Source: Microcoleus sp. FACHB-1515 (GTDB lineage Bacteria > Cyanobacteriota > Cyanobacteriia > Elainellales > Elainellaceae). From it: DNA of 64,000 nt. Position numbers and translations under genes: made by a program. Shown in pieces: positions 23,347 to 27,220 of this stretch. The notes beneath the pieces were generated by a model. It did no database searches and was not told the origin of the DNA. It worked only from the letters and a program-made list of their open reading frames with translations. Location of the stretch: positions 62,001 through 126,000 of the forward strand of contig NZ_JACJPO010000066.1 of the NCBI RefSeq assembly GCF_014696105.1, read 5' to 3'. How positions within the stretch are numbered: the first letter of the stretch is position 1; every line of letters starts with the position of its first letter.

Positions 23347-24594
23347 ATGGCGCAAGTTGTTCTCGAAAACGTTTACAAAAGCTTTAGTCGATCGACTCAG
23401 CGCGAGGTCAAGCAAACGGCCAACGCTGCCGCCCTACCAATTGATCGATCCCTGACCGAGACCGATTCTGCCACCACTGTCAGCGTGTTGCGGCGGATCA
23501 ATCTCACGGTTGACGACGGCGAATTTATGGTGCTGGTGGGGCCATCTGGCTGCGGCAAAAGTACGCTGCTGCGCTTGATTGCCGGACTCGAAGCGATCAC
23601 GGGCGGCAACATTTGGGTGGGCGATCGACTCGTCAACGATCTACCCCCAAAGCAGCGCGACATCGCAATGGTGTTTCAAAGCTACGCGCTCTATCCGCAT
23701 CTGAGCGTTTACAACAATCTCGCCTTTGGGCTACGCCGGACTGGAGAAGATGTTAACTGGCGCGATCGCCTGCTGGTTGGCCTGACGCGCCCGCTCCCCA
23801 AAGGTCTGCGCTATCTTTCTGCGCCGGAAAAAGCGATCGCCCAGCGCGTCAACACGGTCGCCCAAATGCTGCAAATTGAGCCGCTGCTCGATCGACTGCC
23901 CAAGCAGCTATCCGGCGGCCAAAAGCAGCGCGTCGCCCTCGGTCGGGCAATGGCTCGCAATCCGCAGGTGTTTCTGATGGATGAGCCGCTGTCGAATCTG
24001 GATGCCAAACTGCGAACGGAAACTCGCGCCCAAATCGTCAACCTCCAGCGCAAACTCGGCACGACGACGATCTACGTCACGCACGACCAGACCGAAGCGA
24101 TGACGATGGGCGATCGCATTGCGGTGATGAATCAAGGCGTCATCCAGCAAATTGCGCGTCCGCTAGAGCTTTATCACGCTCCGGCCAACCGCTTTGTCGC
24201 GGAATTTATCGGGTCGCCGCCGATGAACTTTTTGCCCGTGCAGGTGAAAGCCCCCTTACTGATTTCGCATCCGCAGTTTCGCATGACGCTTCCCGACAGT
24301 TGGACAAACGCGCTGCGACTGTATGATGGTCGATCGCTCACTCTGGGCATCCGCCCCGAACACTTCAGCATCAGCGTCCCCGCCCCGAAAAATCTACCCG
24401 TCACGGTCGATCGCGTCGAAGCCTTGGGCAGCGAAACCTATATTACCGTCCGCCTCGATGACCGATCGGAGTTGCAGGCTAGAATCGAACCGGATCGATC
24501 GATTTTTGTCGGTGAAAAGCTGTGGCTGTCGATCGCGCCCGAAAAAATTCACCTGTTCGATTCAGACAGCGGCGCAGCCATCCGATTCAGCTAA
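23347..24594 (+). CDS. ugpC: ABC transporter ATP-binding protein, MalK/UgpC family
   Basis: 415 residues. Walker A GPSGCGKST, Q-loop FQSYALYPH, signature LSGGQKQR, Walker B VFLMDEPLS and the H-loop THDQTEAM are all intact. A MOBE/TOBE-type regulatory region follows (LGIRPEHFSI). It energises import of a sugar, polyol or glycerol phosphate and may serve several permeases. Two insertions lengthen it: about 30 residues after the first strand and about 40 after the Q-loop (around PLPKGLRYLSAPEK). A damaged duplicate of its last 170 bases lies at 27051-27220. Confidence 0.92.
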   Translation: MAQVVLENVYKSFSRSTQREVKQTANAAALPIDRSLTETDSATTVSVLRRINLTVDDGEFMVLVGPSGCGKSTLLRLIAGLEAITGGNIWVGDRLVNDLPPKQRDIAMVFQSYALYPHLSVYNNLAFGLRRTGEDVNWRDRLLVGLTRPLPKGLRYLSAPEKAIAQRVNTVAQMLQIEPLLDRLPKQLSGGQKQRVALGRAMARNPQVFLMDEPLSNLDAKLRTETRAQIVNLQRKLGTTTIYVTHDQTEAMTMGDRIAVMNQGVIQQIARPLELYHAPANRFVAEFIGSPPMNFLPVQVKAPLLISHPQFRMTLPDSWTNALRLYDGRSLTLGIRPEHFSISVPAPKNLPVTVDRVEALGSETYITVRLDDRSELQARIEPDRSIFVGEKLWLSIAPEKIHLFDSDSGAAIRFS

Positions 24595-24640: not shown

Positions 24641-24919
24641 CTACTGGAATCGCAAATAGCGCACCAGCAAGCTAATCACGTCACCCGGATCGGGCACGAT
24701 GTTGAGCGGCGCATCGAGTTCCAGCGGTTGCGCCCATTCGATCGCCTGTGCGTATCCGGCCTGCTCTAGCCGCCTCGTCGTGAACTGCACAATCTGCGGT
24801 GTGCCAATCAGAATGTGCTTGATTGGGGTGCGATTGTCGCCCGGAATTTTGGGGATTGACTGAATTTGCGGCGTGGGCAAATCGTTCCGCTCTGAGGCGG
24901 AATTATCAGAAGTATTCAT
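24641..24919 (-). CDS. Hypothetical protein, 92 residues
   Basis: A short hydrophilic N-terminus (MNTSDNSASERND) is followed by a more conserved-looking region: IKHILIGTPQIVQFTTRRLEQ and NIVPDPGDVISLLVRYL. I recall similar small proteins in cyanobacteria but know no function. The ATG at 24919 has AGGA at the right distance. It converges on the ATPase gene. Confidence 0.65.
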   Translation of the reverse strand: MNTSDNSASERNDLPTPQIQSIPKIPGDNRTPIKHILIGTPQIVQFTTRRLEQAGYAQAIEWAQPLELDAPLNIVPDPGDVISLLVRYLRFQ

Positions 24920-25150: not shown

Positions 25151-25278
25151 CAGCATTAGCAAGCAACACTAACGGAATTATTCGGCAAAGTCAAGCAGTT
25201 TTTTTAACCATCCAGCAACCCCGCACCTGCCGCGATCGAGAACATACGTATAAATCACGGAAAATAGACGGAACTTTG

Positions 25279-25395
25279 CTGTGTAACACCCTGTAGCAGG
25301 GCGATTATACAGATTACTCGCTGTTCAACTGCCTCGATCGGGTGATTCGGCAGCGAGCAGTCTGCATAACTCCCCGTAACGGGTGATTAGGCAGA
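25279..25395. repeat. Three tandem palindromic repeats
   Basis: Units at 25279-25312, 25319-25355 and 25361-25395 share one plan: an outer stem (CTGT/ACAG, CGCTG/CAGCG, TCTGC/GCAGA), then AAC-N-CCC, a small loop, GGG-Y-GATT, and the closing arm. Spacing is about 40 bases. They lie directly upstream of the GNAT gene and its cassette-like border. Confidence 0.65.
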
Positions 25396-25416
25396 TTGGA
25401 TCTCTAGAATAAATTG

Positions 25417-25999
25417 TTATACGGAATTCTTTCATAAAGAGATGGAGTGAATTTGTGAGAATCAAACTCCGCACAGCAGGTTTGGATGACCTTACCTCCA
25501 TCTATGCGATTCGTCGAGATTCCATTCTTGGAGTTCCATCTGAGGCTAGTTTAAGTGATCGTCAGGCTTGGGCAGACAAGCGATCACCTAATTACTACCA
25601 AGATCGCATTACTGCTGCTCATGTCGTTATTGCCAGTTTTGAAGAAGACAATATCGGTTGGGGGAGTAGTTCCGACGATTGTATTACTGGACTATACGTT
25701 TGCTCATCATGGTGTCGCAGAGGTATTGGTCGTATAATTATGGACAGTCTTGAAATGGAAATCTTGAGACGTGGGTATACGTGCGCGAGACTAGGATCGA
25801 GTCCGGATGCTGTCGGCTTCTACACTAAGCTCGGTTATGAATCAGTTGGATTTCCGGATGAAGATAGAGCAGTTCCAATGAAGAAACATCTTAGAATAAC
25901 TGATTCTAAATCTATGGCTGTATAACAACCCTGTTGCAACGGGCAGTTTGAGAATCTTGGTTACAGTTCAAGGTTGTCTGCCGCCGTTGAACAGGGTTG
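25417..25999 (+). mobile_element. Integron gene-cassette-like element carrying a GNAT gene
   Basis: Both borders fit integron cassette rules. The left border is GTTATAC (25416-25422). The right side is a folded attC-like site ending GTTAGAG (25999-26005). Joining G25999 to TTATAC gives GTTATAC, the exact reverse complement of GTATAAC (25920-25926) at the start of the attC-like site, as expected for an excised circle. The single gene fills the element, its stop codon lies in the inverse core, and there are no GCGATCGC octamers inside. No integrase gene is in the window. Confidence 0.5.
25455..25925 (+). CDS. GNAT family N-acetyltransferase
   Basis: 156 residues with one GNAT domain: IRLRTAGLDD-like start, TGLYVCSSWCRRGIGRIIMDSLE (acetyl-CoA binding RRGIG loop), and the closing FYTKLGYESVG. 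The substrate cannot be read from the sequence. GTG start with GGAG seven bases upstream. Base composition is more AT-rich than its neighbours, and the gene sits between cassette-like borders, both signs of transfer. Confidence 0.85.
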   Translation: MRIKLRTAGLDDLTSIYAIRRDSILGVPSEASLSDRQAWADKRSPNYYQDRITAAHVVIASFEEDNIGWGSSSDDCITGLYVCSSWCRRGIGRIIMDSLEMEILRRGYTCARLGSSPDAVGFYTKLGYESVGFPDEDRAVPMKKHLRITDSKSMAV

Positions 26000-26005
26000 T
26001 TAGAG
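25920..26005. repeat. attC-like recombination site / long hairpin
   Basis: Whole-site hairpin of 86 bases. TAACAACCCTGTT (25923-25935) pairs perfectly with 25990-26002. After one unpaired G (25936), CAACGG pairs with CCGTTG. After a two-base bulge on the other arm, GCAG pairs with CTGC. AATCTTG pairs with CAAGGTT at the tip. The ends read GTATAAC and GTTAGAG, close to the RYYYAAC/GTTRRRY cores; the unpaired G resembles an extrahelical base. The two spacers are fully complementary, which is unusual for attC. Confidence 0.5.
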
Positions 26006-26257
26006 CCTCATGTGTTCACGAAAGTTCTGTCTTGGTGTATGAATCTTCAAGTCCGATCGCAAGTCGAAAGCAATCAGAATAGCGGCGATCGACATTGGCA
26101 CTGATTAGAAATGGATAATTTCGATCGTAGAACGCGATCGCTGAAAGCTTGCATCTTCTCGGAAGTGAACAAGATTTAATCTTCAGTTCAATCAGGCCAC
26201 AAAAACTTAACATGGCTCATACTGAAGGTTAAACCTCTTTGAGTATGGGAGCCTTTT
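26006..26257. other. Spacer before the toxin-antitoxin pair, with operator-like palindrome
   Basis: No supported gene; a 65-codon minus-strand frame (26016-26213) has no recognisable motif. Just before the antitoxin start, CATACT (26218-26223) and AGTATG (26242-26247) form an inverted repeat enclosing a second one, AGGTT-A-AACCT (26226-26236). This is a good candidate for the autoregulatory operator of the downstream pair. Confidence 0.45.
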
Positions 26258-26488
26258 ATGTTGTCCCAAGAACTGAAAGCGCAAATCTTCAAACTGTCTC
26301 CCAGCGATCGCCTCGCACTCATTACGATTATCGTTGAATCCCTACAAGAAACAACGGTTGCCCAGCCTGACCGCTCTGGCGCAATTCGACGCATGAGGGG
26401 TCTATTAAAAACAGAGCAACCTGCACCAACTGATGAAGAAGTGGCAGCAATGTTGGAAGAGCGGCGATTGGAGAAATATCTCCAGTGA
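26258..26488 (+). CDS. Antitoxin of a PIN-domain toxin-antitoxin pair
   Basis: 76 residues: MLSQELKAQIFKLSPSDRLALITIIVESLQ, a helical start seen in cyanobacterial antitoxins, then a charged helix (TDEEVAAMLEERRLEKYL) likely to wrap the toxin. GGGAG lies six bases upstream of the ATG. The stop overlaps the toxin start by four bases (GTGA), so the two are coupled. Confidence 0.8.
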   Translation: MLSQELKAQIFKLSPSDRLALITIIVESLQETTVAQPDRSGAIRRMRGLLKTEQPAPTDEEVAAMLEERRLEKYLQ

Positions 26489-26913
26489 GAACTTTAATTG
26501 ATACTAATATCGTCCTAGATTTCCTGTTACAGCGAGAGCCATTTTTTCAAGATGCAGAACTGTTGTTTCAAGCGATCGATGAGGGGGAGATTACTGGATA
26601 TGTTACAGCAACAACACTGACGGATATTTTCTACATCTCACGCAGACATACTCGCAGCATTGAACAAGCACGGCAAGCAGTCTCGGAAACACTGACCGCT
26701 ATGGTGATTTGCCCGGTTGATCGAGCTGTTTTGGAATTAGCCTTTGACTCCGGTCTGCCTGATTTTGAAGATGCTGTTCAGATCTCTAGTGCAGTTGCTC
26801 AAGGCTTAGAAGCGATCGTGACTCGCGATGCTCAAGGTTTTTCAAGTTCGTCTATCCCTGTTTTATCGATTCAGGATTTGTTGCGGCAGGTCAGACAGCA
26901 AACTAGTGGCTAA
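26485..26913 (+). CDS. PIN-domain toxin (VapC-like ribonuclease)
   Basis: 142 residues. The acidic active site of a PIN nuclease is present: Asp in LIDTNIVLDFLL, an acidic residue in ATTLTDIFYI, and the aspartates of LPDFEDAVQISSA and IVTRDAQGF. It would cut RNA when not held by the antitoxin encoded just upstream. The GTG start overlaps the antitoxin stop. Confidence 0.85.
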   Translation: MRTLIDTNIVLDFLLQREPFFQDAELLFQAIDEGEITGYVTATTLTDIFYISRRHTRSIEQARQAVSETLTAMVICPVDRAVLELAFDSGLPDFEDAVQISSAVAQGLEAIVTRDAQGFSSSSIPVLSIQDLLRQVRQQTSG

Positions 26914-27050
26914 TTTGATTAGATGGCGTAGATTGCGATCGTATTGCAAGCTTGTCGAAAATGCTGCATGGCGATCCCGTTGCACTCGACCATTCAGAGA
27001 TGGTTGGTCAAGTTCGAGAAGTTGTTAGCGGCGAGTGAACGCAATCGTTA

Positions 27051-27220
27051 TGCAGTGAAACCTATATTACCGTCCGCCTCGACGAGCGAACGGAATTGCA
27101 GACCAAAATCGAACCGGATCGATTTCAGTGGGTAAAAAGCTGTGGCTGTCGATCGCGCCCGAAAAAATTCACCTGTTCGATTCAGACAGCGGCGCAGCGA
27201 TTGGACGGGTCGATCGCTAA
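27051..27220 (+). pseudogene. Frameshifted 3' fragment of a MalK/UgpC-type ATPase gene
   Basis: Nearly identical to the last 170 bases of the ATPase gene at 23347-24594 (compare with about 24427-24595). The first part reads SETYITVRLDERTELQ in one frame; a four-base deletion near 27118-27135 moves the rest (LWLSIAPEKIHLFDSDSG) to another frame. It ends AAIGRVDR-stop instead of AAIRFS-stop, so it came from a paralogue or diverged after copying. Its last bases overlap the 3' end of the convergent gene. Confidence 0.85.

Follow-up and report, generated by a model that had tools for sequence, protein, structure and literature searches.

The locus described here lies in a 64-kb stretch of DNA, which was analysed as a whole and is referred to as the window. 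It contains a small-protein gene, an attI region and two gene cassettes, each of which ends in an attC site (Table 1). The first cassette carries a gene for a GNAT-family N-acetyltransferase, the second a putative toxin–antitoxin module of the PIN type.

Table 1. Features of the cassette array and its left flank (positions refer to the window)
Feature	Position	Strand	Remarks
Small-protein gene	24641..24919	-	92 aa; multicopy family, often on the intI side of attI
attI region	25256..25418	+	Three tandem imperfect palindromes (25279-25312, 25320-25354, 25361-25395), then AATAAATTG^TT; BLAST homology to attI repeats
Gene cassette 1 (GNAT cassette)	25417..25999	+	583 bp; copies 97-98% identical in Pleurocapsa sp. 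CCALA 161 (L093) and Aliterella atlantica CENA595 (L094), edges at G^TT
GNAT-family N-acetyltransferase ORF	25455..25925	+	156 aa, GTG start; Pfam PF13673 E 8e-9, PF13508 E 2e-8
attC1	25920..26005	+	R'' GTATAAC, extrahelical G25936, R' GTTAGAG; R1 model 61.8 bits, E 3.4e-14, model positions 1-87
Gene cassette 2 (toxin–antitoxin module)	26000..27047	+	1048 bp; from R' of attC1 to R' of attC2
Putative antitoxin ORF	26258..26488	+	76 aa, overlaps the PIN gene; named antitoxin by position; no Pfam match
PIN-domain toxin ORF	26485..26913	+	142 aa; Pfam PF13470 (PIN_3) E 1e-24
attC2	26966..27053	+	R' (GTTATGC) is intact, R'' (now GCATGGC) has decayed; R1 model 56.4 bits, E 1.2e-12

Against NCBIfam the GNAT protein gave an acetyltransferase match below threshold only, and the best solved structure is that of a distant GNAT protein (2fiw, E 1e-4). 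A search of the GNAT gene's strand within 25180-26300 gave no sigma-70-like promoter, in agreement with the initial annotation, which had described the gene as promoterless.

The family of the small protein (~92 aa, conserved pattern LIGxPxxV...RL...EW...PG) matched no Pfam or NCBIfam entry. In the cyanobacterial family of the window up to 34 copies per genome are present, and the copies are under purifying selection (dN/dS 0.07-0.33). Members lie beside integron platforms and solo attI sites in the window and at eight further loci. Near attI sites, 18 of 19 copies are situated on the integrase side. The association of the gene with attI is somewhat inflated, since loci of this kind supplied part of the seed for the family alignment. 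The small protein may be a passenger of a repeated module. The 3' end of an ABC-transporter gene is duplicated (24428-24578 and 27052-27198, 89% identical) and brackets the whole module of small gene, attI and cassettes; the same-genus genome G386 has one shorter copy only, beside the same downstream gene.

Cassette ends and attC sites

The ends that had been claimed for the GNAT unit were confirmed: GTTATAC is found at 25416-25422, GTATAAC at 25920-25926 and GTTAGAG at 25999-26005. When G25999 is joined to T25417, GTTATAC is restored, which is the exact reverse complement of GTATAAC; the start of cassette 1 is complementary to R'' at 7/7 bases, and the core would be reconstituted in the circle. 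The GNAT reading frame terminates within attC1, as had also been claimed.

The 86 bases of attC1 had been described as a folded site with one unpaired G. Together with its flanks (96 nt), the site gave folding z-scores of -5.6 and -6.0 on the two strands versus shuffled sequences, and the single unpaired G of the left arm is G25936. By an arm scan, attC1 was the only R-type arm pair in the 64 kb with at least 13/14 complementary positions, and no such pair was present in 20 mononucleotide-shuffled windows; this home-made scanner overlooked several attC sites that were later caught by the covariance model, attC2 included.

The covariance model R1 was built from 18 cyanobacterial attC sites, which were drawn from arrays in integrase-bearing and related genomes, the genome of the window contributing none. 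It recognised attC1 with a high score (Table 1), the opposite strand scoring just 24.5 bits. One training site (L092) comes from a genome that was first reached by a DNA match to the attC2 region, so the attC2 match is less independent than that of attC1. The alignment of the 18 sites contains compensatory changes at 12 of the 18 consensus pairs, and their R''/L''/L'/R' layout with an extrahelical base is the same as in attC1. Fully complementary spacers, which the initial annotation had regarded as atypical for attC, are normal among these cyanobacterial sites.

It was considered whether the hairpin could be a REP- or MITE-like repeat or a terminator that has nothing to do with cassettes. A strong hairpin immediately 3' of the GNAT gene is what this explanation would predict, but the model match comprises the full attC architecture, the cores are complementary and the unit has been transferred with exact ends. 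Moreover, of 12 cyanobacterial genomes in which no integrase match was found, six gave no R1 match at E<=1e-6; the remaining six have 1-11 matches each, which may be real integrase-less clusters. An Rfam scan matched no attC family and returned one chance snoRNA match. The hairpin is not a free-standing repeat and its borders are exact, so the possibility of a widespread REP element, raised at the outset, was decided in favour of the cassette, and we give a repeat or terminator virtually no credence.

The GNAT protein was searched across 84,980 species genomes. Two close relatives were found, both 96% identical, in Pleurocapsa sp. CCALA 161 and Aliterella atlantica CENA595, and in these genomes the match extends to the DNA of the complete cassette. 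In Aliterella it spans exactly G to GTT, and another attC directly precedes the cassette. The Pleurocapsa copy has the identical right end, and its left side runs on into a related attI-like site. Cassette 1 is one 583-bp unit that occurs in three genomes and three contexts with ends at G^TT, and the comparison with other genomes gave the clean junctions that a cassette predicts. Judged by sequence, the acetyltransferase gene with its folded recombination site is a genuine mobile gene cassette. Distant cyanobacteria share cassettes with exact ends. A further cassette is common to G409 and Aliterella atlantica (L078:5043 onward and L094:1719 onward; 95% over 733 bp), its first base being exactly the core G.

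The attC model, the complementary core and the exact unit in three genomes uphold the integron-cassette reading of the initial annotation. The GNAT unit is not a lone cassette as had been supposed, since a second cassette follows and an attI lies at its left. The start of cassette 2 does not match the decayed R'' of attC2, and with this R'' lost, cassette 2 may no longer be excisable. A PIN module with 79% identity is found in G409 (L037) between two attC matches, one of which is degenerate.

The attI region and the missing integrase

About 160 bp left of cassette 1 recur in three other genomes, G396, G388 and G409, and partly on contig C53 of the own genome (BLAST, E down to 6e-25). Similarity among these copies stops at or a few bases from GTT and the DNA beyond differs; in the window the insertion point is between G25416 and T25417. 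Mean identity in the attI alignment is 81%, and the window site scores 35.8 bits with the attI model R2. In G396 (L076) 32 bp separate the attI copy from the open reading frame of an intact 333-codon intI. Two attC are situated on the opposite side, and each R'' of this array complements the core before it exactly. Tandem palindromes of a related kind, closing with a related core and G^TT, are found at seven more platforms whose intI is intact; the platforms of three other genomes are without this layout. For the crossover-proximal palindrome 98.6% of the cells are paired and two of the eight pairs show compensatory changes, a pattern that would fit a hairpin and inverted protein-binding sites in double-stranded DNA equally well. 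By homology, the array of the window begins at an attI related to sites beside intact intI. At five more loci of the own genome (L125, L127, L128, L129, L135) an attI-like end precedes a cassette with a start that agrees with R'' at 7/7 bases (6/7 in L128); the L125 cassette carries an SMI1/KNR4-type gene.

Insertion of the cassette off-target, at a non-integron, attG-like site, would agree with the lack of a nearby integrase and has been proposed as one source of integrase-less attC clusters (PMC8618304). However, ~160 bp of the left flank are homologous to attI sites that adjoin intact intI and are used by different cassettes. On account of this homology off-target insertion was rejected as highly improbable.

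No complete intI was found in the window or in the assembly. Fragments only are present, elsewhere in the genome: an N-terminal piece on contig C53 (L001:1459-1779) and a stop-ridden piece on C83 (L003:1501-1740). The earlier remark that no integrase is near thus holds for the entire window, and the genome-wide look-up for IntI added these degenerate pieces. Integrase-model matches on C45 and C37 were set aside as ordinary tyrosine recombinases, since the model is matched partially within long open frames. The assembly consists of 96 contigs and several attI lie close to contig ends, so an intI may be situated in an assembly gap. On C53 the order is small-protein gene, N-terminal intI piece, attI, and the same order is found in G386, where the intI remnant breaks off near residue 65. 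In the window no intI remnant was found between this gene and attI; the case for loss of intI in cis at the window therefore comes from these sister loci.

We conclude that the window very probably holds an integron platform without its integrase, in the order small gene, (lost intI), attI, GNAT cassette, attC1, PIN cassette, attC2. At the level of sequence this conclusion draws on the cassette boundaries, the homology of attC and attI, the exact GNAT unit in three genomes and the lack of a complete intI in the assembly. The array could be either an integron relic or a solo attI that is served in trans. Each cassette would have arrived as a circle; by analogy with known integrons, an integron integrase would have cleaved attC on its folded bottom strand and linked this strand to the double-stranded attI at G25416^T25417, and the junction would have been resolved by replication. 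The intI gene would formerly have been located between the small gene and attI, and its loss is the simplest reading of a small gene and an attI without intI. Transcription of the GNAT gene probably starts at a promoter within attI or to its left, and the array would now be immobile unless an integrase acts in trans.

An alternative explanation agrees with this on the cassette and on attI and differs only in how intI came to be absent. The attI may never have been beside its own integrase; solo attI sites would then be dispersed docking sites that are disseminated together with the small-protein module and receive their cassettes in trans, through an integrase present, or present in the past, elsewhere. 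Copies of attI without intI are frequent. In the complete genome G011 a single intI is accompanied by six attI matches, and four of its five solo attI have same-strand attC downstream. Aliterella, Pleurocapsa and G409 contain 4-6 attI matches each and no intI; among the solo attI that were inspected, attC often lies downstream. In total, 19 of 39 attI matches have a small-gene copy no more than 2.5 kb away, where 0.6 would be expected; in these counts the sites used for building R2, which come from several of these genomes, match by construction, the extra copies are outside the training, and some of the weaker matches may be due to chance. Against docking in trans, truncated intI adjoins attI at seven loci, among them C53, so at least some attI have lost their intI in cis. 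Docking in trans is conceivable for the window, but we are inclined to doubt it. With the same reserve we put forward that integrons in this family are possibly distributed, with many solo tandem-palindrome attI sites that have spread around the chromosome together with a small accessory gene and are served in trans by a single or transient integrase, instead of a single array beside a single integrase. The palindromic attI provides a searchable signature for attI sites and makes the origin of integrase-less attC clusters, by intI loss or by docking in trans, testable.

Distribution and comparison with known systems

Integrons are best known for collecting antibiotic-resistance genes in proteobacteria. 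An integron integrase above the TIGR02249 cut-off was found in 22 of 386 sampled cyanobacterial genomes. In the family of the window, attC matches are present in all 36 genomes searched (median 23) and an integrase above cut-off in 17 of them. The initial annotation had called integrons rare in cyanobacteria, which does not apply to this lineage: in the sampled family cassette sites are universal and about half of the genomes have a recognisable integrase. In the complete genome G014 (one contig) 11 attC matches are scattered around the chromosome, and no integrase was matched at E<=1e-30.

Integrons in Cyanobacteria are already known (PMC2426708, PMC8618304), and a cyanobacterial attC model already exists (PMC8352920). 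The GNAT unit is a true integron cassette of the ordinary kind, one of two at an integrase-less attI; what looks new is the layout and the dispersal of attI, and the multicopy small-protein gene that frequently adjoins attI on its integrase side. The attI sites outside class 1 have been described as poorly known (PMC9024848). The open-access literature searched gave no account of palindromic or dispersed attI in cyanobacteria; being confined to open access, this result is weak evidence of novelty.

Cyanobacterial attC sites, for which a model has been reported (PMC8352920), comprise 86-87 bp with an extrahelical G in the left arm and paired spacers. From these attC1 shows no important difference, and in attC2 the R'' is decayed. 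Toxin–antitoxin cassettes of chromosomal integrons (PMC8618304) likewise consist of two genes inside an array; unlike those, cassette 2 is of the PIN_3 type and is found in a cyanobacterium.

As in the class 1 site attI1, the first cassette of the window has its integrase-side insertion point at G^TT, and extra repeats lie beside the core (DR1 and DR2 in attI1, PMC8946536). The cyanobacterial attI differs in having one to several tandem imperfect palindromes of ~35-40 bp that end in TAATAA..G^TT, a layout that looks new and is set apart from attI1 by description. An intact intI adjoining attI, which defines a complete integron, is absent from the window; attC1 and attC2, ~1 kb apart, correspond to a CALIN, that is, at least two nearby attC without intI. 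With chromosomal integrons and CALINs the array has in common the tandem cassettes with attC on one strand, with intI absent alongside. In contrast to a CALIN, which is defined by attC alone, the window keeps a recognisable attI, and several such sites are scattered in one genome.
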